Assembly (NCBI GenBank): GCA_036244855.1
Contig: BQKZ01000562.1
Coordinates: 82,505 to 146,504, forward strand
Reading direction: 5' to 3'
Length of the DNA stretch: 64,000 nt
Source: Temnopleurus reevesii
Lineage: Eukaryota > Echinodermata > Echinoidea > Temnopleuroida > Temnopleuridae
Positions 429-25,807 of this stretch are shown piece after piece; the stretch's first letter is position 1; every line of letters starts with the position of its first letter. Below the pieces are notes generated by a model. The model was given only the letters and a program-made list of their open reading frames with translations. It did no database searches and had not been told where the DNA came from. The translations under genes were made by a program, and so were the position numbers.

Positions 429-549
429 GATTCAGAGAGTGATAGTATAACATTACCACTTCCAGAGCCTAGCAAGGTTACCCAAGCTGGGCTATTCAAG
501 TTTGAAGATTTGGACAAGGACCTCAAGAGAATTAAAAAAGATCTGAAAG
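429..549 (+). CDS. FMN2: formin (FMN1/FMN2 type) FH2 exon A
   Basis: Formins are actin nucleators and elongators; the FH2 domain dimerises and caps the barbed end of actin filaments. This exon encodes 40 residues of late FH2, including FKFEDLDKDLKRIKKDLK, preceded by a PLPEPSKVTQAG segment, which matches the FMN1/FMN2/cappuccino branch. It is bounded by an acceptor AG at 427-428 and a strong GTAAGT donor at 550. It is read in phase 0 and ends with one base of a split codon, which joins in frame to the exon at 2653. The gene is partial because it starts left of the window. The family is clear from the joined exons. The choice of FMN2 over FMN1 is weak, since an invertebrate is expected to have one gene ancestral to both. 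Confidence 0.85.
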
Positions 550-631
550 GTAAGTCCTCAAACTGTACAAAATGAGCAACTCTCAGTCAACATTTTACGC
601 ACTAGTGGGATTTCGATAGGGGGAAAATTAT

Positions 632-927
632 TATGACATTATCATGACATTACCAATAACTTAGCAAAGCATAGTAACCCAGGCTGTTTTTTTTCGGGTT
701 AAAAGATTTAGGGGTTGTTGTTCAAAATCAACTGCAAATCAACTGCAACTTTGGAAATTTTAATGTGCATTTTCATTCACGTATAATATGCGCATTCAAC
801 GAGACTCTCATAAAACAATGATTTTTGATTGGCACGTTCCTATCAACTGCAACGTTCGATCAATGGCAACTTTTGAACAACAACCCCTTAGATAAGGATC
901 TGACGAGGATACAAAAGGACCTGAAAG
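632..927 (+). pseudogene. decayed tandem copy of formin exon A (A')
   Basis: From 632 the sequence follows exon A: ACATTACCA, then AGCAAAGCATAGTAACCCAGGCTG (compare AGCAAGGTTACCCAAGCTG), then AAAAGATTTA. It resumes at 891 with GATAAGGATCTGACGAGGAT and ends in GACCTGAAAG at 927. The donor GT of exon A is AT here, so splicing is lost. The copy carries frame-breaking changes and is split by a MITE at 711-887, with TTA on both sides. It is a dead duplicate, not an alternative exon. Confidence 0.75.
711..887. mobile_element. Tourist-like MITE, 177 bp, TTA target duplication
   Basis: The ends are inverted: GGGGTTGTTGTTCAAAA on the left and TTTTGAACAACAACCCC on the right. TTA flanks it at 708-710 and 888-890. 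Exon A, its paralogous empty site, reads GATTTGGACAAGG where this locus reads GAT-TTA-element-TTA-GATAAGG, so both boundaries and the 3-bp target duplication are fixed. TTA duplications and GGG-type termini fit non-autonomous PIF/Harbinger elements (inferred superfamily). The interior contains short AACTGCAA-type repeats. Two more copies lie at 1653 and 12191. Confidence 0.8.
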
Positions 928-1652
928 ATAACACTGCGTTATGAAAAGAACATATTGGAGACTGTCAAGATATTTTTCAAGATGCACACACATCCTTCAA
1001 AAGAGGGAGACCTGCAGATATACTGGAGAAGTTGAATTGACAACAGTTATATGTACAGTAAATAGACCGAGGACGTACAAAATAGCAAACTATTCTTTCA
1101 ACCCTTTGCAATGACTCAGATAGAGAAAGGATATTTATTTTATCTATTGGCCAAATTCTTTAAAGTTGCATATTAGCTGTTTCTTTAATCTGCTATATCG
1201 GACAAAATATTTGTGAAGTTTTTGGAATATAGAATTTTTGGGTTACCTTTCACCACTATAATGCAAGAAAAAGAAGGAATTACAGTGGAATCATTGTTCC
1301 ATATCCATTTTCTTAGCTGTTAGAAAAGAATTCTGACTGTACTGTACTTGAGACTTGTGAACGTTAATTGAATAGTTTGGTAACATTTGGTATTTTTTAA
1401 TGATGAAGTGATAAATCATTCAGTTTTCCCTCTTTATATGGTATAGGCAGTAGATTCAGCCGTAAAGTGTATCTGTATGTCTCCCTCTTTTGATGAATAT
1501 TTGTAAAATCTTGGATTAATTGTTCTCTAGATGGAAGGCTGCATTTAGATAGCAAAGTAGTCTCTAGTCTGTGTTATATGATTTGTTTATAATTTGAGTA
1601 AAAAACATAGGTTTGGCCATTTTCAGAGGGTCAGTGGAGGGCAAATGCCTTA

Positions 1653-1817
1653 GGGGGTGTTGCTCAAAATCAACTGCAACTTTGCAAATTGTAACGCGCA
1701 TTTTCATTCATGCGTGGTGCACGCCTTTAACAAGACGCGCATGTAACAACAATTTTGATTGGCGCGTCCCGATCAACTGCAACTTGCGATCAATTGCAAC
1801 TTTTGAGCAACACTCCC
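1653..1817. mobile_element. Tourist-like MITE, second copy, 165 bp
   Basis: Same family as the element at 711. It has the terminal GGGGGTGTTGCTCAAAATCA, the opposite end TTTTGAGCAACACTCCC, and TTA at 1650-1652 and 1818-1820. The interior is also shared: a GCATTTTCATTC stretch and repeated CAACTGCAACTT units. It carries no coding capacity; short ORFs across it are chance. Confidence 0.8.
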
Positions 1818-2205
1818 TTAGGTCAACAAAGACTTGATGGAAACAGACAGGATGCCTCCTTTACCTAACATTCAGGAATCATTTGCCCAACTTACATGGA
1901 CCCACTTAAATTTTAGATATAACTCCTGACCTAGCAACGTATTTTGAATCTATGTACTCCATACTCCTAAGAACGTAAACTGCCCCTATCTTTTGGTGTG
2001 TTTTATACATTGTAAAGCATTCCAAAATTGAGAATTGTTGTTTCCCCCTTTTGCCATTTTGAATTTCAACCAGTGGCACAATTAAGAGCATGTAATCTGG
2101 AGTCGCTCTTGTGCCTAAGGAGGGTTTTAACTTTCTCCTTTCTCATGTCATACAATGTTTTACTTGTCATACCATTCTTTATTATTGATTTGATATCTTG
2201 CACAG

Positions 2206-2402
2206 GTTGCCAGACTTGGGGCCTGTTACATAAAAGATGCAATTAAGCCTATGAGAGATATTAATTGCAAGATTAATTGTATCTCTTTTATGTTACACCT
2301 CCCAAAGCATATACAGTGCAGAAGAATTAGAGTAAAGAGCATCGGCAATCTTTCATTGACAAAATGGATGCCTTAATCAGTGATCCTCTCGAGGACAAAT
2401 AA
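2206..2402 (+). pseudogene. decayed tandem copy of formin exon B (B1)
   Basis: After an acceptor-like TTGCACAG the sequence reads GGTTGCCAGAC, is interrupted by an 87-bp fold-back insertion, and resumes with CAAAGCATATACAGTGCAGAAGAATTAG, matching exon B3. The frame contains a TAG where B3 has TCC, and the copy ends in GAGGACAAATAA (stop at 2400-2402) instead of continuing through the second half of the exon. There is no donor. It shares its 3' breakpoint with the copy at 2472, so the two arose by duplication of each other. Confidence 0.75.
2217..2303. mobile_element. fold-back MITE, 'GGGGCCTGTAACAT' family, inside exon copy B1
   Basis: Inverted ends GGGGCCTGTTACATAAAAGA and TCTCTTTTATGTTACACCTCC flank a short AATTAATTGCAA-rich centre. 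Comparison with exons B2 and B3 gives the empty site (CAGAC joined directly to CAAAGCA), so this is an insertion into a duplicated exon. The same family occurs at 4586, 5119, 6438, 11131, 16022 and 39968. Confidence 0.8.
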
Positions 2403-2471
2403 CTTGTTTCTCAAGCCATATATTGTTTCCGTCATCCAAAAATTTTTATCTTGATTTATTGTCTCGCACAG

Positions 2472-2578
2472 GTCAGACTAAAGCAGAAACGGTACGGAAG
2501 AATTCAAGTGAAGAGCATCGGCAACCTTTCAGTGACAACACGGATACATTCATCAGTGATGCTCTAGAGGACAAATAA
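2472..2578 (+). pseudogene. truncated tandem copy of formin exon B (B2)
   Basis: Following the acceptor CTCGCACAG this copy stays in frame with exon A and encodes QTKAETVRKNSSEEHRQPF and then SDNTDTFISDALEDK before TAA at 2576-2578. It is nearly identical to B3 over its 5' half but lacks the downstream half and any nearby GT donor. If used it would terminate the formin in late FH2, removing the last helices and tail (a poison or alternative 3'-terminal exon). More simply, it is a recent non-functional partial duplicate. The sequence alone does not decide between these. Confidence 0.7.
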
Positions 2579-2652: not shown

Positions 2653-2797
2653 GTTGTCAGACCAAAGCAGAGACAGTGCGGAAGAATTCCAGCGAAGAGC
2701 ATCGGCAACCTTTCAGTGATAACATGGACACTTTCATCAGTGGTGCTCTCGAGGACATTAGCAAGGAGAACAAAAGATTATCAGAGACCAAAAAGAA
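2653..2797 (+). CDS. FMN2: formin FH2 exon B (functional copy B3)
   Basis: This exon continues formin FH2 in frame from exon A (the split codon is completed by GT at 2653). It encodes GCQTKAETVRK, SSEEHRQPFSDNMDTFI and ISKENKRLSETKK. The segment corresponds to the late FH2 helices of FMN2-type formins. The acceptor is CGCACACAG at 2644-2652 and the donor is GTAAGT at 2798. Of three tandem copies (2206, 2472, 2653) it is the only one with a full-length frame, a donor and a phase-compatible end (AA, completed by the next exon), so it is taken as the working exon. Confidence 0.9.
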
Positions 2798-3299: not shown

Positions 3300-3449
3300 A
3301 TTCTGTGAGTTAGCAGAGTGGTTCTGCCTGAAACCCAAGCAAGGCGACAATGAAGTTACCCCTAGTTACTTCTTCAATCTGTGGGCTCCTCTGTGTAGAG
3401 ACTTCAAAGACTTGTGGAGGAAAGAACTACAAATAGCTGCCAAGAGAAA
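3300..3449 (+). CDS. FMN2: formin FH2 exon C (end of FH2)
   Basis: This exon encodes the final FH2 helices: FCELAEWFCL, the hallmark KPKQGDNEVTPSYFFNLW, then RDFKDLWRKE. The pattern KPKxGxxEVTPxxFFxxW followed by a DFKDxW block is diagnostic of formin FH2 C-termini, closest to FMN1/FMN2. The acceptor lies after TTTTTTCGATACAG and the donor GTATGT follows AAGAGAAA. The phase is consistent with the exons on both sides. The downstream intron (3450-7895) is 4.4 kb and holds most of the repeats of this part of the window. Confidence 0.92.
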
Positions 3450-5230: not shown

Positions 5231-6388
5231 AGAAGTGAGCTAATTCCAAAACTCTACTTAATGCAGACGTCCCTTTTGTGTTTCATTCAATGGTACACTG
5301 CTACATGTAGCAACCACCCCGGGAGTGTCTTGAGTGTGTGTTGATTGAAAAGTGGTGTTTGATGATGAGGTTTTAATTCATAGGGATTAGCTGGGAATAT
5401 AATTAAAGACTGGTCAGTAAACTTCTGTTGCTGCTGAGTAATCAATCATTTCTCCATCTCTTCNTACCACACATTAGAAGGAACACCCTCCTCAACAAAA
5501 GGGCTGATGATCTGAGGGATCCAATCCTATCAAAATAGGGCGGCTTGTCATTGTGATGTCCCCATAGTGCAAGATATGGCATAAGCCAAAATAATCAACA
5601 ATAATTGTCCTATGACGCAGTTATTTTTTCGACATGCTTTTAAACTCTGTTTAATATGTCAAAAAAATGAAAATATGAAGATGAAAAAGATACTGCTCGC
5701 CCGTTCCATTGTTTTTAATGCTTTTCTCAATTTTCAACCCTTACCATTACCTTGTTTAAGTTACTTATTCCTCTCATTCTACTTGAATAATAGATAATGA
5801 ATAAATAGATTTATGTTCCCTCTTTACTTTTTCAAACCATGTTCTCTTTAGTTCTCTCTCATCGTGTCGATTCCTGTTCTTTCTATAACTTGAAATACTG
5901 AAATAATAAATCCCCCAACAAATAAATAAATAAATAAATAAATGATAAAATTGTAGAATAAATAAATGAAAAATAAGTAATAAAAACATTATTTTAAAAG
6001 ATCTGAATTTATTGAAACGCCTTAGAATCACGGGTCGGGAAAACACTCATCTCTCTTTCTAAAAAAAAGTATTTTGGGGCAATGGGAAGACTGCAAATTT
6101 TAGGGTGTTTTTATCGCGCAGAAAATAGCGCGAGCAGCTGTTCGCCAGGAAAGAGGGGATTTTTTTAGCGCGCACACTAAAATTTTGCTTTGTACAACGC
6201 GTTCGATTGGCTAAAAGTAGTAAAGAGTGGGCGGGTCTAAACTTAACACAGATAGAGATAACATACCCTTAACATAGTTTTCAGAATACCGATTTAGGGG
6301 TGTGTTATGGGTATGTTAAGTTTGGGACTTAACATAGAAGTTAACACAGAAGTTACAACAGTTTTCAGAATACGGCCCCTGGGCCCCT

Positions 6389-7357
6389 GTTTTTGGCCGG
6401 ATTAGCCCTCTCAGTGGTTTATATCGAGATAATATCCAGGGGCCTGGGACATAAAAGATGCCATTGAACTTACTATAAATATCAATTATAATTCTATGAC
6501 AAAACGTGTACCATAGCGGTACAATTAATTTTAAATCAATCGTATCTCTTTTATGTTGTATACCTCAGATCTCCACTACCCTAAGTCCAAAATATATGAG
6601 CGCAGGTTGTCGCTGTCTTTTGTGATGTAGCTTGAGATATACAAATCCGGTCCTCGTCCAGATTAGCGTAATTAGAGTGAACATGACCGGAAAAAATCAA
6701 GCATGCTCCTGCTGTATAGTCTTAAGGGGTCTTGAATGAAAATGATTGTGTAAGCCAATATTTTTGCAACTTTAGACTAGTTTGACGCCTTGGCGTGTTG
6801 TTATTTTCACGTTGTTGACAGTGTTTGTACCCATATCTATGTGCATCATCTGAGCAGAAATTTTTGTGACGCTACCTGAGAAATTTGCAAAAAACATAAA
6901 CATTTCAGCTTATAGAGTAGTTCAAGCTAAAAAAAAGAAAGAAAAAAAAAACAGCAGGGTCTGCATTGTGTGAATTACATTTAGTGAGCCTATTTCTGAA
7001 TGAACTCATTTATTTGACAAAAACCCGAATAAATCTTGAGTTTTTTCATCTCAAGATTTCTCCAGTGCATCAGCTCACTGATTGTGTTTGCAATGCAATT
7101 TATTTCAAGCTTGTTCTGATTGGGCGAGTTTATCCAGTAGCAAGCTCATTCCAAGACTGTCTGGTTAGTGGAGACGTCCCTTTTGTGTTTCATACAATGG
7201 TACACTGCTAGCAACCACCCCAGGAGTGTCTAGAGTGTGTGTTGATTGAAGAGTGGTGTTTGATGATGAGGTTTTAATTCATAGGGGTTAGCTGGGAATA
7301 TAATTAAAGACTGGTCAGTAAACTTCTCTTGCTGCTGAGTAATCAATCATTTCTCCA
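6389..7357. repeat. second copy of the 4530-5463 block
   Basis: Begins in GGCCGGATTAGCCCTCT and runs to CAATCATTTCTCCACC, parallel to 4530-5463. Its 3' part (7106 on) is also the start of the much younger 567-bp duplication. Confidence 0.65.
6438..6568. mobile_element. fold-back MITE, GGGGCC family (duplicate of 4586)
   Basis: CAGGGGCCTGGGACATAAAA at the left end and CTTTTATGTTGTATACCTC at the right end. Differs from the 4586 copy by scattered substitutions only, as expected if both sit in one duplicated block. Confidence 0.7.
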
Positions 7358-7672
7358 CCTTTTCTGATTGGTTTTTATTCCCCGTGCCTCTCCCATCCCT
7401 TTCTTTCTTTCTCTTTCCCTTTTTTTCTCTCTTTCTCTCTCTCTCTCTTTCTGTCACTCTCATTTTCATAGCCTTTACAACGTATTTCAGTTTTATTATT
7501 AAATAAAACCAAGAAATACTCCATTGTTTTAACAATCGTTTGCAATATTTTACATAATAAGATAAGGGGAAAAAATATAGAGATGGAGATAACAAGCCTG
7601 CCAGCTTGAAATTCCTATTACTGACTATTTACATACATTTACATGAAATCGTTGTCTGGGGAGGAAGGTTCT
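7106..7672. repeat. 567-bp near-identical duplication, copy 1
   Basis: This stretch recurs at 8535-9101 with a constant offset of 1429 bp and no net indels. I saw only one substitution (CAATATTTTACAT versus CAATAATTTACAT). It includes a (CTTT/CT)n tract near 7400-7452. The formin exon D lies between the copies. Confidence 0.9.
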
Positions 7673-7895: not shown

Positions 7896-7989
7896 GATGC
7901 TAGAAACTCAGGAGATTGTAAGGCAGAAGCAGGAGGAATGGAGAAAAGCAACTCCTTTGAAAACAGGAATCAAGAAGGCTGATGGATTG
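7896..7989 (+). CDS. FMN2: formin C-terminal tail exon D
   Basis: The codon split at the end of exon C is completed by G at 7896, then the frame reads MLETQEIVRQKQEEWRKA, TP and LKTGIKKADGL. This is the short, basic, charged segment after FH2. In FMN1/FMN2 it carries the formin-Spire interaction sequence, which binds the Spire KIND domain; the GIKK(A) segment resembles the end of FMN2. The acceptor is TTTTTTCTTTGCAG and the donor a consensus GTAAGT at 7990. If the donor were skipped the frame would run 16 more codons to TAA. The last coding exon downstream is not certain. Confidence 0.85.
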
Positions 7990-10967
7990 GTAAGTTGTCA
8001 CAAATTTAATAGTTTCTTTAACTTTTTCATCCCAACCTAAAAAAGCAGCAATAAAACTCAAAGGAATGTTGAGTTTCTTCAAATGGTAACTCCACACCAA
8101 TAAGATAACTTGATTTTGATTAAAAGCGCAAAAATTAGACGAACATATAAAAACAGTTACGAGTGAAATTTAACAAAAATATCAAAGTTATGAACACTTA
8201 AATGATATCTAAAAATAATTCAAGCAGTTGTCTTTTAGCAATTGGCAGTTTTAGATTATGTGACGATGACGTATGTTCATCACTTCTCTACAATATATCT
8301 CATTTCTTTTTAAAGTCATAGGTTTTTCAAATTCATTGCATCAAATCGCCATATGTAAATGAACTAAAAACGTGGATCAGCTTAAAAATTTTATGCTGCC
8401 CTAATGTTCATACAAGTACAAATTTTAATGGAGAGCAATCTGTGGTTTAATTTGCCACTCGTTTGTTCTTGAATGCTACCCCTTCTGATCTAGGAAAAAA
8501 AACCACACAAACAAACAATCTCATCCATAATTTCCAAGCTTGTTCTGATTGGGCGAGTTTATCCAGTAGCAAGCTCATTCCAAGACTGTCTGGTTAGTGG
8601 AGACGTCCCTTTTGTGTTTCATACAATGGTACACTGCTAGCAACCACCCCAGGAGTGTCTAGAGTGTGTGTTGATTGAAGAGTGGTGTTTGATGATGAGG
8701 TTTTAATTCATAGGGGTTAGCTGGGAATATAATTAAAGACTGGTCAGTAAACTTCTCTTGCTGCTGAGTAATCAATCATTTCTCCACCTTTTCTGATTGG
8801 TTTTTATTCCCCGTGCCTCTCCCATCCCTTTCTTTCTTTCTCTTTCCCTTTTTTTCTCTCTTTCTCTCTCTCTCTCTTTCTGTCACTCTCATTTTCATAG
8901 CCTTTACAACGTATTTCAGTTTTATTATTAAATAAAACCAAGAAATACTCCATTGTTTTAACAATCGTTTGCAATAATTTACATAATAAGATAAGGGGAA
9001 AAAATATAGAGATGGAGATAACAAGCCTGCCAGCTTGAAATTCCTATTACTGACTATTTACATACATTTACATGAAATCGTTGTCTGGGGAGGAAGGTTC
9101 TNTATTTACAACTCAGGGAATTAGGAACATGTATTTTTATGGATTTCTGTTGACCAGAAGCATTGTAATATAACCATGTTAGAATTTGTGTCGAGTTCCA
9201 CGGAGGGATGGTAATGAAAATGTGACCAGATGGTGTTAAAATTCCTCCTTCAAGAATTTCTCCTATTTTCGAGAAAGGAAACAAAATTGTTGGTCAAGGA
9301 ACATTGTTGAATCTCTGAAGAGATACAGGATATCACTACCTCCATACTTCCAAGAAATGTTAAAGTTTGGCTGAATATGAAAATGACAAGGTATTATCTT
9401 TTTAAAACTATAAGCTGAAATCCTGAAAGAGGCTGAAATGGGCTGAAATATCAATATTCATTTCATAGTTGGTAAATTAAATTCAAATTAGGAAAGGACC
9501 GCAGAAATGCAACAAACTTTTGTGACATTACTTTATCGTCTTATTGCATTATTATTATACATTAGGTTGAATTGAATTCAGACTGAGATAACGCCTTTCG
9601 GAGGAAACTTTTCAGCACTGCTGATACGCCAAAATCTAAATACATCAGCATTCTTTTACGATGGGATAACATATTGGCGCTAGACATTTTCAGGTTACAT
9701 TATGACATTATGCAGTATTGCAGTTGGGCTGGGAAACTTTGTTACACAAAATGTTATGGTAGTGAGCAATTGCCCTTCAACAAAAGCTTGTCACTGCAAA
9801 GCTTTGTGTAATATATTGATTCAGGCACCACATAGTATATCAACAATATTGCACTACTACTCTTGTACATTTTATGACTGTTTTAGTCCAATGTATAGAG
9901 AGAAGATTTGTAATGAAGTTACATTTCAGCATTCTGGTGTATACAAAACTTTACAGCCAACTGAGGCGAAGTAGAGATACTAATTTGTGTGCCATCAATT
10001 TTGGTGCTTCAAATCAATCAAATTAATTGTAAAAGAAAAAATAAGGAGAGAGAATAGGGTTATATACATGGAGCAATAATATCACGTAATATCTGAGGTC
10101 ACATATCAACTCTCTTCATTTTTATTTTATTTACTCTTGTTTCATAAATCCAGATTGTATATGTCTTTGTTTAAGGTATATAATATTTGTTTATTGTTGT
10201 GTTCCTTTCCTCTATATACATCTTTCTCCTCTTTGTTTTGTTTGTTGTGTATTAATGTTTTCAAATGTGTATGAGTTTTGTTTGCCAGATATATAATGAT
10301 TATTTTGTTGATGCACCACCCAGGCTTCCAATATTGCTGAATTCAACTGATTGTTGTGTGTGATATATATAATAGAACGAAAGAAATATATGAATCTATG
10401 CATATGAAATAGGCAGATAGGATTAGAACAAGTTTCAAATAGGTGTTGTTCAGTCAGTTGGATACAAGAGTTGTGTTATGGTCATGCCAAGATGAATCTT
10501 GATGGATTTTTCGTGTAGCTTACATTTTTTTAAACAATCCGAGGGATAGTTTGACTTTGTCTAGGCATTGCATGCATTTGAGTCCTCACTTCTAATCTTT
10601 GTTTCACATTCACTCTCTCTCTCTCTCTCTGTCTTTTTTATATTCCTCCCTCTCCCACTCGGTATCTTTCCCCCTTTCCCTTTCCCTCTTTCAATCCTAC
10701 TTTTATTTGCTGTTTCTATCTCACCTTCCATTTCTCTTCTCTCCCAAATCACCCTGACCCTTTTCTCTCGTTCATTTTTTCGCCAACTTAGGACCCTTCA
10801 CTGGGTAGTTTCATCTGCAGTTTCTTTTTAACTCCTATTCCCCTGTAACTTGTGGTACTCAATCAATTAACAATAAGATGGTGATAGTGTCCATACATTT
10901 ATTAAACAGATGAATTTATGGTTTTACAAACTGTACTCTTATTGGATGCATTCTTGACTTCCTGCAG
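7990..10967 (+). other. probable last formin intron
   Basis: Apart from the 567-bp duplication, no coding signal or known element was found. An alternative terminal exon could begin at 9691 (acceptor GACATTTTCAG at 9680-9690), giving only three codons (V-T-L) before TGA. A CT-rich tract lies at about 10608-10632. Confidence 0.4.
8535..9101. repeat. 567-bp near-identical duplication, copy 2, ending at an N
   Basis: Identical to 7106-7672 except for about one base, and it stops exactly at the single N at 9102. A repeat that terminates at an N suggests a joined contig end or retained haplotig rather than a biological tandem duplication. It lies in the intron after exon D. Confidence 0.9.
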
Positions 10968-11012
10968 CAAAGCATGACACCTCTCATTCAACCTACTTAC
11001 ATTCTGGGTTAA
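10968..11012 (+). CDS. FMN2: possible last coding exon of formin
   Basis: A good acceptor (TTCTTGACTTCCTGCAG) precedes a phase-0 frame of 14 codons, QSMTPLIQPTYILG, ending at TAA (11010-11012). This phase is the one required by exon D. There is no homology I can point to, because C-terminal ends of formins are poorly conserved, so this rests on splice-site quality and phase alone. An alternative is a three-codon exon at 9691. A poly(A) signal follows at 11634. Confidence 0.27.
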   Translation, partial: QSMTPLIQPTYILG

Positions 11013-11130
11013 AATTTCACTATTTTGTGCAATTTTTACTACAAAAGTATACACTAATTCACTCCATAATAACAGAATCAACTACAGAAATCTGCTGTTC
11101 TGATATTCAGAACTATACACTTCTGATGTT

Positions 11131-11280
11131 CGGGGCCCGTACCATAAAGGTTTGCGATCAATTGCTAATCTGATAGCGATTGATATCAATCGCAAGTCTA
11201 TGGTAAATCATGTACTAAAGTTTGCAAGTGATCGCAAAATCAAATAGCGTTTAATCGCAAAGCTTTATGTTACGGGGCCC
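11131..11280. mobile_element. fold-back MITE, GGGGCC family
   Basis: Left end CGGGGCCCGTACCATAAAG and right end CTTTATGTTACGGGGCCC are inverted. The interior carries ATCGCAA repeats in both orientations, so the whole 150 bp can fold into a long hairpin. It lies in the presumptive formin 3' region and, if transcribed, would sit in the 3'UTR. Confidence 0.75.
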
Positions 11281-11633
11281 TGAACCTTGTAGATGCCCAT
11301 GAAAGTCAGAATTTCACATTTGAGAGCCCCGACAACAAAAGTAGTTTTGTCGAGAAGCATCAGGTTCTCCTACAGTGGGTTGCATTGTAATAACATGTTC
11401 ATGTTTCTGTGGCACTATCCATTTTAGGTGAATGCTGCCCTCTTAAGTTTTGTGATATGTAATTTGTCTGATTTGTGCCTTCCCAGAGGCTATAGAATTA
11501 TCTGATAATTTTTTCCTTTTTTACACTTTTATATTAACCAGCCTGATTTCGTCTTGTACATAATATTACTTGATATATTCTGGTGAAGAGTTAACAAATA
11601 GAGTTGACTGTTAGAGTACAGAGCTTTATATGA

Positions 11634-11639
11634 AATAAA
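11634..11639 (+). terminator. candidate formin poly(A) signal
   Basis: AATAAA within TATGAAATAAAAAATTG, about 620 bp after the candidate last stop codon. AATAAA is frequent in AT-rich DNA, so this is only a candidate. Confidence 0.25.
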
Positions 11640-12190
11640 AAATTGTTTATTTCAAATATTCCTTATTTGTAGTGCAATACAAACTCCTTTCATTACTATG
11701 CATGCTATTCCTCTAGTACTTTTATAGCTGAATTGTTTATTCCAAGTTGAACTCTTGAACAGTACTGATAAATTGTAATTCTAAACTAATTTTGTAGAAA
11801 TCTTTTGTCTTGTTGTATTCGGTGTCATGCAATTTTTCATATTGTAGAATACTCTATGATGCTTATGTATTCACCAATCTCACTAAGTATTTTGATGCAC
11901 GTAATTCATAATTTTTAATGAAGTAATTTCTCAACTTCTGCCATACACATCTCTTAATTATATTTATACATGCTTTGGGCTGCAATCTTTTCTCTTTTTT
12001 TTCGGCGAAAAATATATTAAAAAAAGAGGTTGACATCTCTTCAAATTAACATATATTCAACTCAATGTATCACTCATGTGTTCATACAATGTAAAAGATT
12101 TCTAGCTTATACCTTGGGTTTTTTTTTTAGTTCACTGAATTATATGGATCTGTTTTTTTTATCATCAAGTATTCAAATGTGGTAGTCTTA

Positions 12191-12313
12191 GGGGGTGTTG
12201 CTCAAAATCAATTGCAGATCAACTGCAACTTTTCAAATTGTAACGTGCATTTTCATTCGCGCGCGATATGCGCATTTAACAAGATGCACATGAAACTTTT
12301 GAGCAACACCCCC
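12191..12313. mobile_element. Tourist-like MITE, third copy, 123 bp
   Basis: GGGGGTGTTGCTCAAAATCA at the left end, AACTTTTGAGCAACACCCCC at the right end, TTA on the left and GTA on the right (one flank mutated). It is shorter than the copies at 711 and 1653 through loss of the inner right part. Confidence 0.75.
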
Positions 12314-15061: not shown

Positions 15062-15240
15062 GATTAAAATTCATATACGTATTTTGCTAAAGAACAAAGT
15101 TACGTAATATTCCTTAAACCGGTTAGCAAAATTGAGCTACGATACTTGGAATCTAGTTTGCACACATTACTTGTTGCTACGTCGGGCAAGTTTTCGGGCT
15201 GTCAAGAATAACCTTTATGTATAGAGAACGCATAAAATTT
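15062..15240 (-). repeat. dispersed repeat R1, copy 1
   Basis: Read on the minus strand it contains ACTTGCCCGACGTAGCAACA and TGTGCAAACTAGATTCCAAG, then CCGGTTTAAGGAATA. The same order of motifs is found on the + strand at 28682-28840 and 54890-55086. Similarity is about what is expected for old copies of an interspersed element. No terminal repeats or coding capacity were seen; the class is unknown. Confidence 0.65.
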
Positions 15241-16021
15241 GCACTACATGTACTAGTAAGCCCGCATATTGGCCCAACACCAGACGAATTCTTTGTGAGT
15301 TTTCGAAAATCAAGCTTTGATACAATTTTGAATTTGTAGAACACTGGTGCTTGTGAAGTAGTTCACGAAATCATCAAAAAGTTGCACTAATTTGATAATA
15401 AGATCGAAATAAATTGATACCAAAGTAAATTTGTTAAAAAATATGAGATTAGTGGAGACATATTGGCGGCAACATGGAGCATCCCATTTTAGATTATCTA
15501 TTTATCAGATCAACTATCTTTGGAAACTCTGATAAGTTTGTCTGGTGCTTTGGAGTCAGTGTGTGTATACATCGATTGATTTTGTCTGTATGAGAATAGT
15601 AAGTATTGATTTAAATACATGTTGATTAGATATCTACTTCTGATTTATGATAAGATTGCGATTTAGATCATCACGAGATTTATTACAGATTATTTAGCGA
15701 GATTACTCCATTTATGCGTCGAAGCTTCGTGTTGTTTAACCGTTCTTTATGAGCTCTCCTTTTCTGTCTCTATTTTTCGAGTTGGTCTATCGGCTGGTTG
15801 ACTCCATAATTGATGGTGGTTTGCGGGTGTGTCCGCTTTAAAAGAATGATTATTTGGATTTTATGGTCTGTCCATTCAATGAAAGGCATTTTGCTCAAAT
15901 TATCCCTGATTAACGAGCGGTCATTTGCAAGTTGAATAAATTTTGATTGATTTGTCGAGGTATAAGACTTCCTTCTATGTGTCGAAGGCTTCTCTGATTG
16001 AGTGATTGACGTATGAGTTCA

Positions 16022-16140
16022 GGGGCCTGTAACATAAAACAAGTTTGCAATCAATCGCAAACTTTTGTACATGATTTCCCATAGACTTGCGATTGATACC
16101 AATCGTACGATCGATTGGAACGCTTTATGTTACGGGCCCC
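16022..16140. mobile_element. fold-back MITE, GGGGCC family
   Basis: GGGGCCTGTAACATAAAAC at the left, GCTTTATGTTACGGGCCCC at the right, and TTGCAATCAATCGCAAAC/TTGCGATTGATACCAATCG in the arms, giving a nearly full-length hairpin. CAG flanks both ends and may be the target duplication. Confidence 0.75.
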
Positions 16141-16329
16141 AGTTCTTATTGTTCCAGTCTTAACCCATACCGAGATGCCACAAAACGTTCCATAGAATTT
16201 CAGACTCCGATCAAAACGCATGAATAGTATAATTTATTGAGATTGCGTTGAAGCTTTTTGCATTCCTTTGGCACGCTGAACAATCTATGGAAAAGGAGAA
16301 AGAAAGTGGCAGAAAATGGGAATAGAAAT

Positions 16330-16551
16330 AAATAAAATGCACCGCGTCAGGGGGCGCATCCGATCTCCTGTGTTAAAGCCCGACCAAAGCAGTGTTTCTA
16401 CGACAGTCGGTTGGGGTGGTGAGCCGCGCTGCATTAGATCGCAATAACTCGTGCGAATCTCCTCATGTAAATCGGGGTATCTCGAGGCCGTTGCGAAACT
16501 CGTCGTGTATTGAGCGCTATATAAGTATCCATATTGTATTGTATTGTATTG
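16330..16551 (+). mobile_element. probable SINE 3' part with (ATTGT)n tail
   Basis: Ends in GAGCGCTATATAAGTATCC followed by about four ATTGT units. The AGCGCTATATAA motif before a simple tail is typical of tRNA-derived SINEs in marine animals. A clear tRNA head is not visible, so the 5' border is approximate. Confidence 0.4.
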
Positions 16552-16599
16552 AAATCGCATATAACTCCAAAATTTACGAACGCGTTCACAATTGTTACT

Positions 16600-16800
16600 T
16601 GCTCGTGGTTGGATAACTCGTGTTGAACTCGTGATAAGTCCTCAATACTCGCACGAAGCTCTTATTGCTCATAGCGGACTCGTAATGGGCTCGTAACAAG
16701 TTCTTTGTTTATTATCGTGTCGGACTTGCATTACTCGTACAGCATTCGCAGTAAGCTCGATGTTTCCTCGTAGATCACTCGGATTAAGAAATTACAAAAT
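16600..16800. repeat. CTCG-rich quasi-repeat
   Basis: Many variants of ACTCGTAA or ACTCGTG at irregular 10-20-bp spacing (for example GATAACTCGTGTTGAACTCG, GGCTCGTAACAAG). A similar compositional pattern occurs in the element at 61969-62595, suggesting a related repeat, but no termini could be identified here. Confidence 0.4.
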
Positions 16801-16999
16801 TGGCGCGATTCCCGACGAGTTATGGCGAATTCGTATTTTTAGCATAGCTCGTTTGCAAATCGCTATCGTGTGAACGCTGCTTTCAAACCCGACTAATGGG
16901 TCCATCCAGACTCGAGCCTGGACGACATAGCATCTATTCACATTCATTTGTCATAATAAAGACAGCATCGTCGTTAAAGAATGACAAATATTTTTGATG

Positions 17000-18823
17000 T
17001 GCATTCTAGTGTTGATGTAATGAGGTTGATGTGAAGGCAACAGGGCAGAAACCCACCCCAATGGCATCGGCAATTGTACCTTTTCTGGTTTGACATATGC
17101 GTCCAACAACCGTGATTTTAAATGAATTATCTCTAATAATACAAGAAAGACAAAACGAGAAGGAGAATAATGAACGAGAAAAAGCACAAAAAGGAGACGT
17201 AATTGTTCAGCAATGATCGATAAAAGCCACCCACCCGTGTCCAGAATACAAATATAAGTTTGTATTTAGCAAGTATTATTCGATGGGTATGAATGCTGGA
17301 GTATTGTATGGGTTTGTAAGCCTCAGGCGTCATCATACCTCAGCGATCAGTTTTGTATTATACTTGTTTTAAATGGGCGCCACGCAGTCGAACAAGCCCG
17401 ATGCAATTCCGTCTTTTCGGAGAGTTTTGTACTTTTCACTTCAAAACACGAACAAAATCAGAGCTTTCGTGTCTAGTTTACTGAAAATTCCAATAAATGA
17501 TGAATCCTTTCTTATTTGTGTTTTCTTTTGCTAACCTTAAATCCACTCTTGTAAAAGTCAGTAATCTACAACACAGGGTCACGAGACATAGGATTTAAAT
17601 TCTGAAATGATTTTGGATTCGGGGTAATGACACACGTTCCACTAGCTAAGCCTAGAAATATTCCACTTGTAAAATATTATACTCAAGTAAACAAATGATT
17701 CGACTTCTTTGCAATATCCATAATATCAAAGAATGTCAAACAATATATATAGTCAAAATGATAGATAAGGCTTGTCGATCAGAGCTAATATTTATATATC
17801 AATTCAAGGGGTCATCATATTTCGTTTATTGAGTTTATTATGATAATTTATATATCTATAATTTTATGGGTTTCTAACATTTCCATTCGAGGTTTTATCA
17901 ACCTTTCTTTTTAAATGGCCAAAATGCCTCTTTCTCAATGACTGTTCTTTCCTTTTTTTGTTCTTCGAGTGAGTCTAAATATTAGCAACGGTCTTGTAGT
18001 AGGTTATCTATAAATTTGAAGATTAAATTGTCCATTTTCAGTACGAATTTTATTAGTACATAATATGTCAATTTCAAAGTTATGAAATTTTCAGCTATGA
18101 TCACAAAAAGCTTAAAAAAAAGGATGGGGCTAAACTGTCATTAAAATGCCTAATATCCAAGCAAATAATCGTGATTCAATTCCATAATTTTATAATAACC
18201 AAATTTACGTTATTGCATTTCAAACTTTTCATGAACTTGCTCTAGATCTACTTCCTATTCATTCCTTCGGTAATCATGGTAATGCTGGGTATTAGTTATT
18301 CACTGATGATCCAATAAATTAAATGTGCATCAATATGAAAATTATTATAATTACCATTATTATTGCTTACGTTTTTGAAACATTAATGAGAAGATGATTC
18401 ATGTTTGCTTTTTGAACAAATAATAACAAAACGTATCTTCTTCACTTTCAAGAGAAACAAGAAAGATAAAAGTGGAACGCTCGAATTATTGTTGCACCGT
18501 TTGTGCCATAAATGAACGCGATAATTACCAGACTGTATGTCGATATCTATAGAGACATAGCTGCAATAAAGTTGAAAAATAATTTTTTTATTCATTTTAT
18601 GATGAAGTCGCCGAGTCATGCGTAAATTATATTGCATTTACTTTTAATAAAATCAATACAAGAATTGAAAAGATTTGTAAAGTTAATCAGGCGGCGTTCC
18701 TTTGTGAGAATTATATCTTCATCAAGAACAAAAGCGATTCGACGTCAGCCAAAAATGGGAAAAGAAGAAGAATAAAAAAAAATGAAGAAAAAGAAGAAAA
18801 ACAGGAAAACATGTAGGATGACG
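17000..18823. other. intergenic, nothing recognised
   Basis: AT-rich, with no coding signal, tRNA box pair or inverted-repeat element that I could support. Confidence 0.5.
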
Positions 18824-19098
18824 TAGTCCAGTTGAGGACTGAGTGGTTTGATAGCACCCACCTCTGCATATTCACTTACACTGTACACACAGGGACTGCA
18901 CTACACTCAACCACAGAGTCCTTATACATAACCCTCTAATATGTATGCCCCTCTGATCGCGCCTCCCCACTAGGGGCATACATATTAGAGGGTTATGTAA
19001 GGACTCTGTGGTTGAGTGTAGTGCAGTCCCTGTGTGTACAGTGTAAGTGAATATGCAGAGGTGGGTGCTATCAAACCACTCAGTCCTCAACTGGACTA
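18824..19098. mobile_element. 275-bp near-perfect palindrome with 9-bp target duplications
   Basis: The left arm (18824-18952) and right arm (18972-19098) are reverse complements apart from a 2-nt indel (CTTATACAT versus ATGTAAG) and surround a 19-bp spacer. The arms start TAGTCCAGTTGAGGACTGAG. AGGATGACG flanks both ends (18815-18823 and 19099-19107), a 9-bp target duplication. It has no coding capacity. A 9-bp duplication suits Mutator-like non-autonomous elements (inferred); long-arm fold-back elements of the sea urchin TU type are an alternative. The high arm identity implies recent insertion. Confidence 0.85.
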
Positions 19099-19599
19099 AG
19101 GATGACGTAGACGGGGTTCAATAACCTGGAGTCGATCGTATTTTTATCCAAATTATTGCCGAAAATGGCAATTGTCACCAATCTTTATCGTCAAGTGGAG
19201 GAACGAGGTTCGATAAGGAGATGGAGACATAGTCTGACTCGGTGGCGACAGGCTGAACAGCGCATGGTGTGAACTTGTCACATTCCAAGCTCAGGGGTTC
19301 CACTAACCTTAGACAGCGCGCTGGTGGTAGTGGGGTGCGTTCCCACTGGGTAGGAACGAACCAGGGAATGCGTCGGTTTGGAAATACAGAAGTCCACGCA
19401 AGTCAGGACTTTAAACAGCAAATTTGTTTTGCCATCATGATACAGTATATAATTTGGAAATGGGCCTTTATGTCTGTTCGAACTTACAAGGTAGTGATTG
19501 AAATTCCTAGTAAAGTCTCTCAATATTTAGAAGAAGACATTGGAATATCAGAAAGTAGAAGGATAAGGAAAGACGATAAATGCAAGGGAGGTTTAGGGG

Positions 19600-20054
19600 A
19601 TGAATATTTGTATTTGATGTGTGCGTGTGTGTAGGTGTGTGTGTATACTTTGTAGAATTGTGTGCATATTGTGTATTTTGTGTCTAATGTGCTGATATAT
19701 GTAGTGGATAAACCATACATGAGTGTAAATGTCGATAATGATACTGGTGGGTGTTGGAAAGAGTCTGTATGTATGTGTGTGTGTGTGTGTTGGGAGAGAG
19801 GCACTTAAGCAGAGCTTTAGAGACAGAGAATAGGAGTGTAATGAGAATCAAACGGTGCATGTCATGTTTTGAAATAAATGAATATCATATTAAGACCTTA
19901 AAGTGATGTGTGTATGTGTGCTTGTTTATACATGTCTTATTATGTTTGGAGTGAGCGGGTAGAAATGTGTGCGTGTGTGTGTGATATAGAATATGGATAT
20001 GAAGCGGTGAACAAGAATGTTCGTGTATATTTTTGTAGATGTGTCCTGTGGGCA

Positions 20055-20093
<39 letters not shown>

Positions 20094-20345
20094 ACGCATT
20101 AACACCTAGGTGCGTGAGAGGGGAGAAATAAAGGGGAAGATGGCGAGTTGTACCGTGGTGTGTGTATGTGTGTGGATATGTGCGTATGTGTGTAAATATG
20201 TTGGAGTGGGGTGTCGATTTGTGCGTGGAGTATGTATGTGTGCGTTTGTGTGTTTGTAACTATATGTGTAAGTCTGGCTGTGTCAGGGTGAACATGTGTG
20301 ATAAAAGTCTATGTGTGTGCGTGTGTGTGTTTGCACGACTGTGTA
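19600..20345. repeat. GT-rich low-complexity tract
   Basis: Degenerate TGTG-rich sequence with a pure (TG)n run at about 20058-20092. Its cysteine/valine-rich ORFs are artefacts of the repeat. Confidence 0.9.
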
Positions 20346-20702
20346 TCTGGAATGGGGGATAGAGAATGATAAACACATCGGAATTTAGTCAATATCAACT
20401 AGATATTGATAATTAATAATACAAGTGTCCAAAAAGTGTAAAAATGTCCACAACTTTTCACACTACATCTACACTGCATGTAAAAGGTACCTCTCACAAC
20501 GAATTCCACAAAACCACCACTCCAGTATTTGAAAAATGTGGCGGCAGTGTGAACAGGCCTGAACTGTGACACTCCTCCACCCATCCTCGGCTCCCCCGCC
20601 TGTGCCGGTGGTTAGGACCCGGTAGCTCGCAAATGAGTCGAGGCGATACGGGGGCCCCCGCCGCGTCGGGTGGGTTGCATGCCCGCTAGGCTGCGACCTT
20701 AA

Positions 20703-20831
20703 GCTCCAGTCACATAGGGACCCGGAAGCAACACGATTCAACACGACTCTTTGTGAATTAAAAGTTAAATAACTGCAAACAAAGAGTAGTGTTGAATCGT
20801 GTTAATTAAGGGCATCTATGTGACCGGGGCC
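20703..20831. mobile_element. fold-back MITE, CCCCGGTCACATAGG family, copy 1
   Basis: CTCCAGTCACATAGGGACC and AAGCAACACGATTCAACACG on the left pair with GTGTTGAATCGTGTT and ATCTATGTGACCGGGGCC on the right. A loop of TTAAAAGTTAAATAACTG separates the arms. It is more diverged than the copies at 45809 and 47191. Confidence 0.8.
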
Positions 20832-22661
20832 TAATACTGGGAGAAACGGATGCAGCTCATTGAATCTTAAGAATCTCCTCCATTCTATTGAAATCGAATG
20901 AAGTGTTTGTTCTCTCGAAAAAAAGTTTAGAAAAGTTTTCTTGGAACACAATGGAGATGAGTACGAATGGTATTTTAATGGGGGAATGATATTGATACTA
21001 GATACCAAAAGTGAATAACGTGCACCTTATCGTCTTAAAGAAAAACTTTTATATGAATCTCTCGAGTCTAATAGTTTTCCATTCGTTTGTTTGTACATTC
21101 TGATTAAAAAAAAAAGATAAATTTTACTGTTATTATGTTGTATGTTCGACGAAGTTAGATATATTGAATCAAATATGTCTGCACTTATCAGGCAAGCAAT
21201 GAAATAACGTGAAATTATTGTGATTTTTGCAATGACTTTAATGTACTTTGAAATTCAAGACTCGTAACCAAAATTATCATAATATGCATTTATTTTGTTT
21301 CACTTGAGGAGGAATGTTTCCGTGTATTCAGGTCAGTTTTCATTGTCATATTCTTCCCTCTTAGTGAATTAAAAGGAAACAAATCTTTGGAATTATTGTG
21401 TTCTCATTAGATGAAGAAATATCAGATAAACAAACAGAAAATTTGAGCAAAATAGGGCAACCCGTTCGAAAAGTTATGAATTTCCCAATTCTCAAAGATT
21501 TGATGACCTCTGCCGCTGATGGTGATCTTTTTACCTCCTTACATCTCATTCTTATTTCTATGTTTTCATACAAAGCATGTTGCTCTCGATTTATACACAC
21601 TGTAGTGTTTTGTTTGTTTAGTTCAATTGGTGTTACCCTACATAGATACATGAATGATTTTAGGAATATAATGAATAACACCTTTGGTGTTAACTTAATA
21701 CGTGTGCAATCTATATATCTAATGAGATAACACCATTTGAATACAACGTATCGGTTTATCTATATACACGTTCTCTATTCCCATACTTTTCTCTTTTCTC
21801 TCTTCTCCACCTGTTCATAATCAAACACAAACATTTTAAGCATACATATATTAGTACACACGCACACGCACATGCACACGCACACACGCACACATACAAA
21901 CACACAAACACGTGCAAATACTCCCCAAAGCACACACTGGTGTACACACACACACGCACACAAACACACACGCACATACATACACATAAATTCCTTTCTT
22001 ATTCTTCCCTATTCTCTCAGCCCTCTTTCATGAAAATGATGCGCTTGAACAAAAATCTTAGCAACTCCACTTTTGACCAATCAAGAGCGCTATTCCAGAA
22101 TTGCGTTCCGAGTTTCGTCTTCAACTGCCCCTAATTATTCCCCCGTTTTGATAGCCTCATGAATAATGTGTACAAATGAAATATGATGAAATAGCAATGC
22201 CATTGTAAAGCAACCAGATGTCATTAAATCGCTTAAATCTAAAAGAGTATGGCTCATTTTGGAAAATCTTGTTTATCATAGTCAATTTAACATGAGAATA
22301 GATTTACAGTTTTTCTCATTCATACTGTTTATTCATTTAATTTGCTTACAGCTAAAGCTCTTTTTTCTGAAAACCATTTCATTCATAATCGTGACGAGCA
22401 AGAGTTTATTTAATGTCAATTTTTTGGGAAAGATGAATCTATAATTTTCATCAAACGAAAACCATATTTTTAAATTTAGTTTAGTTAAAAACTTTGTTAT
22501 GTAGCGAGGATATGTTACATTTTTTTTCGTAGGATTAAGGTTGCCGTTTTATTTTCTTAAATTTACTAACATTTTTTCTGTCCATCAAAACAAATCAACA
22601 ACCCCCAAACCTTTAGTTATGGATGTCTGATCGTATTTTAATGATGCCGAAGTTGTTCTTA
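20832..22661. other. intergenic, only a CA-rich tract
   Basis: Contains a CACACG-rich tract at about 21855-21985 and otherwise AT-rich sequence. Overlapping ORFs on both strands near 21361-21730 show no domain or repeat support and were not called. Confidence 0.6.
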
Positions 22662-22884
22662 CGTGTTTATTTGTTTTAGGTGATTTCTCGTATGTCGTGG
22701 TTGGCCTTAGCAGCTGCAGTTCTAGCCTCACCCAAACCCTTGATCTTGAAAATTGGCGGCAAGAATTTGTTTGTTATTGCGTGTTTGTTTGCTTTTTAGG
22801 TGATTGCCCGAGTATTGTCATTGGCCTTAGCAGCTGCGGTTCTGGCCTCAGTCAAACCCTTGATCTTGAAAATTGGCGGCAAGA
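22662..22884 (+). repeat. 120-bp tandem duplication with exon-like halves
   Basis: Two copies offset by 120 bp. Each starts with a pyrimidine-rich stretch ending TTTTAG/G and continues into GTGATT with GGCCTTAGCAGCTGC, AAACCCTTGATCTTGAAAAT and TGGCGGCAAGA. Read from GTG, the copies encode similar peptides (LALAAAVLAS, then KPLILKIGGK) of about 40 residues ending in stops at about 22797 and 22914. The acceptor-like AG before each copy makes them look like tandem exons, but no donor or partner gene is visible. A non-coding tandem repeat is equally possible. Confidence 0.55.
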
Positions 22885-24122
22885 GCCCGGCATGGAACCC
22901 ACTTTACTGGTCATAACCTCCAGATGTCGATCGGGCGAAAGAGGAAGAGAAAAATTAAAATGGTTTCCATAAAAACAACCTCAACCCACGAAAACTCATA
23001 AGAGACCATTTATCAAATTTGATTGGCTGTTATCCATGAAGGTTTAGAACACATGCAGGATTCCAACCCAGTCGAGAAGAGAAAAAAAGTGGAAGAAAAA
23101 AAAAACTGTTTTGGGTATTTTTGTTTCGTCTTAAGGAGGTGTGCCGCTCAGCGGATGCCGCCGAAACTTGTAGCGAAACGGATCAATCTCTTTGCTAAAT
23201 AAGATGCAATAACTTGGAGCACTCAGCCCAGCCGGCGAGACGCTATCCTCTAAATCTAGTTCCGTCTTCTATCATCTCTTGTTGTTCTCATTCCTATTTT
23301 CAATCTTTCTCAGTCCCATTTTCAATCTTTTTCAGTCATGTTTTCAAATTTTTCCTGTTTCAAAATCCTATTTTTTCCTTTTTTTAAATATGTTTTTGCC
23401 TTCCATCATCGATTGGTGCCAAACTGCCAGCGATCTGAAAGTTGCCTTTCATTTCGTTAGCAGGGGTGATTCATTTCCAGAACCATGTTCGTGATTGAAT
23501 CATTTTAACCTACAGCTAAGAGGGGAAGCAGGCGCCAAGCGAGATGGGTATAAGAGCCAAACTTTAAGAGGTCATGGATATGTTTGAGTTGTTTCATTTT
23601 TTTTTTCGTGTTTTACGAGTTTGATTTTACTTTTCATTTAAAATAACGTTTGATCATGGTCCATCAAAATGGAAAAAAGAAGATCATGACATCATGACGT
23701 GTATGAATCAAATGTATTTTTTTCGTTCGTATTTCGATTTTGTGTATATATTGCATACCCGAACTATTGGATTAATGGGTTGGGTTTGAAAAAGTTGCAA
23801 GGTTTAACTTACAAAGAGTTGCCATTATTTGAATTCATTCATCCATTTCCATTTTAAATCATGTGATCATGGAAGATTATTCAGGCTTTGCCATCTCCAC
23901 ATCATTTGTAATAAACAATCAATATGAACACTTCAATGAATCTATCATATTTTTGTACCTTTGACCGTACCTTCCCACATTTTACTTCACTTTATGAACT
24001 AATTAGCCCATAATATCAATTGGATCATTACACGTAGGAAATAAATCAGAAATGACTAATGAAAAATTCATTGCATGAAATTTCGACAAGTAGAGGTCGG
24101 AGTTTTAACGACTCTTTGAAAA
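22885..24122. other. intergenic, nothing recognised
   Basis: Downstream side of gremlin. No exon or element was recognised; the distal gremlin 3'UTR could reach into this stretch. Confidence 0.4.
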
Positions 24123-24309
24123 GTTGGGCAAAGCTTTACTTAACACTGGGCAACATACTGTCGACACATTATTCTACACAACTTTGGACTAAAAATATAT
24201 CCAATTTATGGTAAAACTGCTCGGTTTCAATATGAATCGAACATTTTATAATCAAATAATTGTGTTGACAAAGTATGTTGCCCAGAATCGGGTAAACTTT
24301 TTGCCCAAC
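24123..24309. repeat. fold-back repeat downstream of gremlin
   Basis: GTTGGGCAAAGCTTTAC and CTGGGCAACATACTGTCGAC on the left are inverted relative to GTTGACAAAGTATGTTGCCCAG and GTAAACTTTTTGCCCAAC on the right. The arms are about 40-47 nt around a 100-bp centre. If the gremlin 3'UTR extends this far it would form a long stem in the message. Confidence 0.65.
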
Positions 24310-24611
24310 GTTCTAAGAATGTAACATTTTATGGAATTGCTAATTTCCTTAAGCCTATTGTACTTTTTCCCTTTGTGTAATCATTCTCCAAAATTCCACG
24401 TCAAAATGACCTGCAAATGAGTTAGGACCACACTCCGTTCCGGGTAAAACAAAATAACCAACAATAAAATCAAATGTGACAATTTCTTGGTCACATCTGA
24501 TATTTTCCCTGTCAAATCGGACCATATCACAAATTATTTTTTTTACATTGAAGGAGTTTGACCCAACTGATTATTTCCGGGTCATCCTGACATAGAATTT
24601 TTTATAGTGCA

Positions 24612-24617
24612 CGTGTG
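24612..24617 (-). terminator. candidate gremlin poly(A) signal
   Basis: ATTAAA on the minus strand, about 600 nt after the gremlin stop codon. It is one of several possible signals and is given only as the first plausible one. Confidence 0.2.
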
Positions 24618-24860
24618 TTATTTAATCTTTCCAAACGATACAAAAACAAATGAAGCAACACAATGTGTTTTATATAGTTCATACATATCTCCGTGTATTT
24701 ACACTATATTTGGCTCATGAAAATATGAGAATAGTAAATGATAATCTTCATTGAATACGGAATAGGTTATATCATTATACATTATGTACAATGTGAATAG
24801 CATCTTCTGTTATACAAATATCCATAATTAAATGAGTCTTTTATATCCATTGCATAAATA

Positions 24861-25060
24861 TGGCGTCTCCGTGTCTCCGAGCTAGCTCCTGTCATATCGT
24901 ATAGCTCGCTACACGGAGCTACGTGTACACCAGTGCCACGTAATATCGTCATCTCGTGCGGTCACGTGATGATTCGTTGATCGACCAATCACAGCCCGCG
25001 TTGGGTGTCCGTAGACGGTTTACACTAAATAGAGCGAGTTGCATGGCAGTGTTTGTTGAA
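24861..25060. promoter_or_regulatory. GC-rich block just 3' of gremlin with E-box and CCAAT
   Basis: Local GC content is clearly above the surroundings. It contains GTCACGTGAT (24961-24970, a CACGTG E-box), GACCAATCAC (CCAAT at 24985-24989) and CACTAAATAGAGCG at about 25023-25036. On the minus strand it would be early gremlin 3'UTR; on the plus strand it resembles a promoter pointing into gremlin antisense. Either reading is inference. Confidence 0.35.
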
Positions 25061-25219
25061 ATACGCTGAGATAGTAATGATAATAATAAATGTCATAGAT
25101 AGATTCATCAATGATGTCCTTTTTCATCACAAGATTCGTCCACAAGATATAAATAATTGTTTTGCATCTTTTAATCGTCCATGCAGTGTTCGTTTTTCGT
25201 CCGTTTACGGGATGCTAAT

Positions 25220-25807
25220 CTACGGTACCTCGACCGCCATGCATCTGCACCGCTTCACTCTCTGGACTCGCTTCCTCTTGATTGGCGGGTTCTGGCCCGG
25301 ACATCGCAAAGTTACTGTAATGTGATTCACCCGAAACGGTTTACAAAAGGAGCACGATTTGAAAGCTTCGTTATACGACGCCGCTTGTTTGGGAATAAAG
25401 AACGAGTTACACTGTCCGTAACAGAATCTATTCGCTATGGTCCGAGGAATACAGCCCGGTTCCTCGATCCGCTGTTTCAAGGGCTGCGTTTTACACCAGT
25501 CCCCTCGGAGGTATTGCTTTTCGGTAATCTGCATGGCCTCTTCGCTCGAAGGCTTCAGAACCTTGTGTGGAGCGATTCGGATGTCGCTCCCTGGAGGGAA
25601 CATTAAAGGGTCCAGTTCCTCGTTTTGTTCTGATTTTAATGATGTGTATTCCTCGAGGAGAAGGAGTGGGTTGGTGGGTGGGAGGTAGGGTTGGTTGTCT
25701 TCGACGTTTCTCTCTGAGGCCGACCGGTCACGATCTCCGGGGACTAACGCCGACCCAGCAACGATTGGTATTAACCAACTCAGGCACAGTAAGCACGGTA
25801 TCAACAT
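25220..25807 (-). CDS. GREM1: gremlin, DAN-family secreted BMP antagonist
   Basis: Gremlin is a secreted cystine-knot protein that binds BMP2/4/7 and blocks receptor access. The 195-aa product has a hydrophobic signal peptide (about residues 1-19), a variable linker, and a C-terminal DAN domain (about 88-195) with DWCKTQPLKQ, NRFCYGQCNSFFIPK and KSCSFCKP. Nine domain cysteines (105, 119, 129, 133, 152, 155, 169, 187, 189) have the same spacing as human GREM1, including the unpaired one (152). A basic stretch, KRKRVQRVKR (177-186), fits heparan sulfate binding. No N-glycosylation sequon is seen. The start is the ATG at 25807: a splice acceptor ends at 25815, so the eight further upstream in-frame codons are intronic. 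The context GTCCGCCATG is good. As in vertebrates, the whole CDS lies in one exon. It is probably the single precursor of GREM1 and GREM2. Confidence 0.96.
   Translation of the reverse strand: MLIPCLLCLSWLIPIVAGSALVPGDRDRSASERNVEDNQPYLPPTNPLLLLEEYTSLKSEQNEELDPLMFPPGSDIRIAPHKVLKPSSEEAMQITEKQYLRGDWCKTQPLKQRIEEPGCIPRTIANRFCYGQCNSFFIPKQAASYNEAFKSCSFCKPFRVNHITVTLRCPGQNPPIKRKRVQRVKRCRCMAVEVP

Follow-up and report, generated by a model that had tools for sequence, protein, structure and literature searches.

Formin and gremlin genes face each other tail to tail in the sea urchin Temnopleurus reevesii, probably as an ancestral bilaterian pair

We analysed 64,000 nucleotides of the genome of the sea urchin Temnopleurus reevesii (GenBank assembly GCA_036244855.1, contig BQKZ01000562.1, positions 82,505 to 146,504 of the forward strand), a stretch referred to below as the window and numbered from its first letter. 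Near its left end the window carries the 3′ part of a formin gene on the plus strand and, further right, a gremlin gene on the minus strand. Formins are actin nucleators. Gremlins are secreted antagonists of bone morphogenetic proteins, a role that for the window gene is predicted from its family only. The identities of the two genes, their order, their orientation and their spacing were read within one assembly, and the locus is very probably a sea-urchin case of an ancestral bilaterian pair in which a gremlin and a formin of the FMN1/2 type stand tail to tail, and which was doubled in vertebrates.

The formin is represented by four consecutive C-terminal exons with AG/GT borders, which splice into a single frame of 170 amino acids. 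Identities below are from tblastn with P0121, a relative from Strongylocentrotus purpuratus that contains a full FH2 domain (E value 1.7e-84). Exon E1 (429-549, plus strand) lies within FH2, begins DSESDSITLPLPEPSKV, ends in phase 1 and was 83% identical to P0121. Exons E2 (2653-2797, plus strand; GCQTKAETVRKNSSEEH), also in FH2, and E3 (3300-3449, plus strand; FCELAEWFCLKPKQGDNEVTPSYFFNLW), at the end of the domain, both end in phase 2 and were placed by borders and frame, with identities of 82% and 78%. Exon E4 (7896-7989, plus strand; MLETQEIVRQKQEEWRKATPLKTGIKKADGL) ends in phase 0 and was placed by its borders, with 75% identity. The joined protein matched FH2 at an E value of 2.3e-14 over profile positions 266-372 of 372, approximately the last third of the domain, and the rest of the formin is expected beyond the left edge of the window.

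A padded search with the formin tail returned three proteins from 174 candidates, all of them sea-urchin formins: LOC115929551 of S. purpuratus (82% identity), a Lytechinus variegatus protein (80%) and a Diadema antillarum protein (67%), each identity covering 88% of the scored region. A plain protein search with the 170-residue tail gave none at an E value of 0.001 among 57 candidates, by our guess because full-length formins were too long for the query, and a PDB search returned a designed protein (0.0016) together with weak DIAPH1 matches. In a phmmer comparison the window tail scored 105 bits with FMN1 and 98 bits with FMN2, against 15.6 bits with a piece of DIAPH1; the two FMN reference tails were entered by hand, which counts against the comparison, and the DIAPH1 letters were copied from search output. 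Because of this difference in score, and by comparison with short references, the gene is best classed as a formin of the FMN1/2 kind, nearer to FMN1 and FMN2 than to DIAPH.

The gremlin coding sequence, including its stop codon, occupies 25220-25807 on the minus strand as one coding exon of 195 residues with a DAN cystine-knot domain. It lies in a stop-to-stop open reading frame (ORF) of 25220-25855, and the start methionine at 25807 was placed by alignment with P0001, a protein 90% identical to it. Pfam recognised DAN (PF03045) at residues 98-207 of this ORF with an E value of 1.4e-36. In a PDB comparison the protein scored 148-153 bits with human Gremlin-2 and Gremlin-1 and 52-53 bits with NBL1, so that by sequence it stands nearer to gremlin than to the rest of the DAN family. 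Judged by eye, all nine cysteines of the DAN domain match those of human GREM2 in the PDB-search alignment, and the predicted N-terminus is hydrophobic and signal-like. Ahead of the ATG, an acceptor-like AG (of TTTTGCAG) with seven following bases (25808-25816, minus strand) suggests a non-coding first exon upstream. Such a plan would be similar to that of vertebrate Grem1, for which a "coding exon 2" is mentioned (PMC3541112).

A gremlin tree of 22 rows, rooted at its midpoint, was divided by a branch with support of 100/98 into 12 rows (the window protein, P0001-P0004, sea stars, a sea cucumber, crinoids and Saccoglossus) and 10 rows (vertebrates, amphioxus and moths). The closest row to the window protein was P0001 (99/98), followed by P0002 (94/95), and inner echinoderm forks had support of 85/90 to 94/95. 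The main branch separates the window group from human GREM1 and GREM2 jointly, which places the window gremlin outside the vertebrate GREM1/GREM2 split in a tree with a single vertebrate GREM2 row and with long rows for the sea cucumber, Saccoglossus and human GREM2. Of 250 protein-search matches, the 120 that were listed were named as gremlin, CTCK domain, hypothetical or uncharacterised proteins, or were unnamed or lacked a name; one sea-cucumber gremlin-2-like row among them was also labelled "Glycoprotein hormone beta-like 1".

The two genes are convergent, with their 3′ sides facing, and 17.2 kb separates the last formin codon seen (7989) from the gremlin stop (25220). They are adjacent in this one assembly, given a probable join at 9102 and weak gene tests. 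No other gene was recognised by these tests in the interval from 9103 to 25219. Of all ORFs of at least 80 amino acids lying wholly within it, 0 of 22 reached a Pfam family cut-off (three gave matches below the cut-off, at E values of 0.04-0.07). Ten further stretches, three of them in the interval, also yielded nothing over the cut-off; six were drawn from the upper ranks of codon usage and four were chosen as long ORFs. Rfam gave no match at gathering score across the window. These tests are weak for split genes because formin's own exons escape Pfam singly (0 of 4 exon ORFs matched when sent one by one) and rank low in codon usage: E1 and E4 are not among the 45 ORFs listed by that ranking, and 20539-20729 and 19232-19354 stand level with or above E2 and E3. 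The codon-usage score was trained on about 1.1 kb of the formin-gremlin locus and gives certain ORFs that are not genes a higher rank than true exons of the formin. A gene of short exons within the interval could thus have been missed.

The preliminary description of this locus had named a formin of the FMN1/2 kind and a gremlin in convergent order, and both identities and the order were borne out. It had placed the 3′ ends 14-17 kb apart with no other gene between them. The distance of 17.2 kb lies near the upper figure, but it is measured from the last codon seen, as the 3′ end of the formin is not in hand; the claim of an empty interval is consistent with the Pfam and Rfam results, within the weakness noted above.

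Human FMN1-GREM1 and FMN2-GREM2 are also arranged tail to tail on their strands. For Fmn1-Grem1 this arrangement is consistent with the exon order in PMC3541112, which reports linkage of the two genes in the vertebrates it covered and places a limb control region between Fmn1 exons 19 and 23. In mammals, FMN2 adjoins GREM2 (PMC5274524). The window therefore resembles the vertebrate loci in having members of both gene families adjacent, and differs in having a single pair, approximately 17 kb apart from the last exon seen, where vertebrates have two. The linkage appears to predate the duplications of the vertebrate genome, because a gremlin outside the GREM1/GREM2 split and an FMN1/2-type formin stand in convergent order in an invertebrate.

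An ancient origin had been proposed in the preliminary description, and a pre-duplication age is supported by our results, but this part is not new. In the limpet, a scaffold carrying SOSD and Grem was reported to have limited synteny in common with amphioxus (two scaffolds) and human (three chromosomes), with DAAM, Lgmn and FMN among the synteny shared with Grem, in the ancestral linkage group CLG11 (PMC4079206, 2014, Genome Biol Evol). That report resembles ours in its linkage outside vertebrates and in its conclusion that the linkage is ancient. As published work on limpet, amphioxus and human had already given the age, the novelty of the ancient linkage is mostly gone, and our contribution is a case from the echinoderms for which orientation and spacing are given. 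No report of a formin-gremlin pair in an echinoderm was found in the literature searched, a search that mostly covered papers outside subscription journals, without supplements, and in which "formin" also matches "forming".

Several points weigh against reading the adjacency as an inherited pair. A repeat of 570 bases, 99.65% identical by self-BLAST, occurs on the plus strand at 7103-7672 and again at 8532-9101, and a single N at 9102 follows the second copy directly; the N at 5464 is likewise preceded by a repeat match (5238-5463). Both are likely contig joins at repeats, and the N at 9102 is probably an assembly join inside the formin-gremlin interval, so that adjacency is not provable from a single assembly. 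The end of the formin is also incomplete. Three sea-urchin formins (P0121-P0123) carry a short C-terminal tail starting KARLS, which we take to be a Spire-binding motif; a PDB search with the P0121 tail returned designed and unrelated proteins only, with no Spire-formin entry. Given this tail and the phase 0 end of E4, one further short coding exon of about 12 codons is expected after 7989. It was not found when the S. purpuratus, Lytechinus and Diadema tails were compared with the plus strand from 8 to 64 kb, nor was there a convincing match to it among those listed for P0121 by tblastn with whole proteins on both strands, so the true 3′ end of the formin is not established. The last exon may have been lost at the repeat-associated contig joins.

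On the gremlin side, none of the 120 listed of 250 matches was a gremlin named from a sea urchin, while named ones from sea stars, a sea cucumber, crinoids and hemichordates were present, and the two genes were therefore not placed on one named sea-urchin chromosome. Gremlin may be unannotated in the sea-urchin reference genomes. Two statements in PMC5274524 also count on this side. FMN2 is worded there as lying on the 5′ side of gremlin 2, which in itself gives no support for a tail-to-tail arrangement; we take "5′ side" to refer to chromosome direction. In ruminants and cetaceans, FMN2 and the GREM2 site were inferred to be separated, with GREM2 lost, which indicates that the FMN2-GREM2 bond is breakable.

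The position of the N at 9102 and the missing last exon would both fit an assembly chimera, formed at the repeat that ends there out of two contigs with no true linkage, the formin tail coming from one and gremlin from the other. A random misjoin is unlikely to have chosen gremlin's vertebrate neighbour in the matching orientation: by our own estimate, with an assumed gene number, the chance that two given genes adjoin in a given orientation is approximately 4e-5 (2/25,000 × 1/2). The linkage in limpet, amphioxus and human argues in the same direction, and we consider a chimera very unlikely. Still less probable, to the point that we give it hardly any weight, is an independent meeting of formin and gremlin in the urchin lineage; the partner and the orientation are those found in vertebrates, the linkage in limpet and amphioxus (PMC4079206) argues against it, and nothing was found in its favour. 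We infer that the linkage was inherited and did not arise by misassembly or chance. The bilaterian ancestor would already have had the formin-gremlin pair, which would later have been doubled into FMN1-GREM1 and FMN2-GREM2 with the vertebrate genome.

Two partial copies of formin exon E2 were found in tandem upstream of it. Copy A (2304-2396, plus strand), identified by alignment, is decayed, with an internal stop and 58% identity to P0121; 17 of its 93 bases are unlike those of E2 (5, 4 and 8 at the three codon positions). Copy B (2474-2572, plus strand) has its own acceptor in the correct phase and an open frame followed by TAA, with 79% identity to P0121. Of its 99 bases, 12 depart from E2 (0, 2 and 10 at the three codon positions), giving ten synonymous and two non-synonymous codons. 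In simulations, 12 random changes produced two or fewer non-synonymous codons at a frequency of 0.0001. This frequency rose to 0.047 when only six of the 12 changes were free to fall on copy B, and for this reason the evidence that copy B is protein-constrained is graded as suggestive. Copy B may serve as an alternative terminal exon, giving a formin cut short within FH2. A weak tblastn match at 888-1022 (E value 0.53) to the end of E1 and the start of E2 (LDKDLTRIQKDLK) is perhaps an old partial exon copy.

Other features of the window were of lesser note. The ORFs at 20539-20729 are G+C-rich, lie on the minus strand and have a codon-usage score above formin exons, and they matched no Pfam family. 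An element at 18824-19098 is palindromic, with a 93% match to its own reverse complement, and resembles a miniature inverted-repeat transposable element (MITE). Three further stretches (20698-20836, 45808-45934 and 47189-47320) are also palindromic and MITE-like, with matches of 73-91% among themselves and to their own reverse complements. Past the gremlin start, no gene was recognised in the approximately 38 kb from 25900 to 64000, again by weak tests; in the 28-64 kb part, 80 ORFs of at least 75 amino acids were read by eye, the codon-usage score was applied, and seven stretches sent to Pfam gave nothing over the cut-off (one of the ten stretches sent had an E value of 0.055). The sequence at 36-38 kb is richer in G+C (0.43).

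How the pair has been kept together is less clear than that it was inherited. Fmn1-Grem1 is a textbook case of mutations in one gene taking effect through the gene next to it, the limb deformity mutations having been mapped to the formin. Conserved metazoan microsynteny was reportedly attributed to cis-regulation by Irimia et al. 2012; the present locus is similar in that a developmental gene lies beside an unrelated "bystander" gene, with a regulatory element that is hypothetical here. For the Grem synteny, PMC4079206 cites that study and suggests that different taxa have retained a cis-regulatory element in common. Fmn1 and Grem1 share a landscape, and the mouse Grem1 enhancer CRM2 contains Fmn1 exon 22 and is conserved to sharks (PMC8455560). 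By analogy, gremlin enhancers within the 3′ introns of the formin and between the two genes may hold the urchin pair together, the formin being a bystander host as in mouse. The mouse precedent and the keeping of the pair in both vertebrate copies are the points for such regulatory retention. The mouse limb enhancers belong to the vertebrate pair; a counterpart in the urchin locus would be hypothetical.

Several observations tell against regulatory retention. Sea urchins have no limbs. Zebrafish, fugu and medaka lack the three conserved limb elements of Fmn1 and still keep the linkage (PMC3541112); those elements alone cannot explain it. The GREM2 copy has been parted from FMN2 and lost in ruminants and cetaceans (PMC5274524). 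All of these fit an alternative that shares the core of our interpretation and differs in the mechanism of retention, namely that the ancestral linkage survived passively, through slow rearrangement within CLG11 and without a regulatory bond. The presence of FMN, DAAM and LGMN near Grem in that linkage group (PMC4079206) is also in line with it. The close range kept in both vertebrate copies and in the urchin window speaks against it, as does the conservation of CRM2, with its formin exon, to sharks. Passive survival in a slowly rearranging linkage group accounts for the data nearly as well, and we regard it as a serious possibility at somewhat less than an even chance. Regulatory retention would be the likeliest mechanism, with chances about even and passive retention close behind.

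A more specific proposal, which we consider unlikely, is that gremlin enhancers sharing an ancestor with the vertebrate Fmn1 exon 22 element (CRM2/HMCO1) reside in the 3′ introns of the formin and in the 9.1-25.2 kb region. If this were true, the limb enhancer would be a co-opted form of a much more ancient bilaterian switch for gremlin, lodged in the formin. The compact urchin locus, at approximately 17 kb, offers a small and testable place in which to ask whether the bond between formin and gremlin is regulatory and how old it is.

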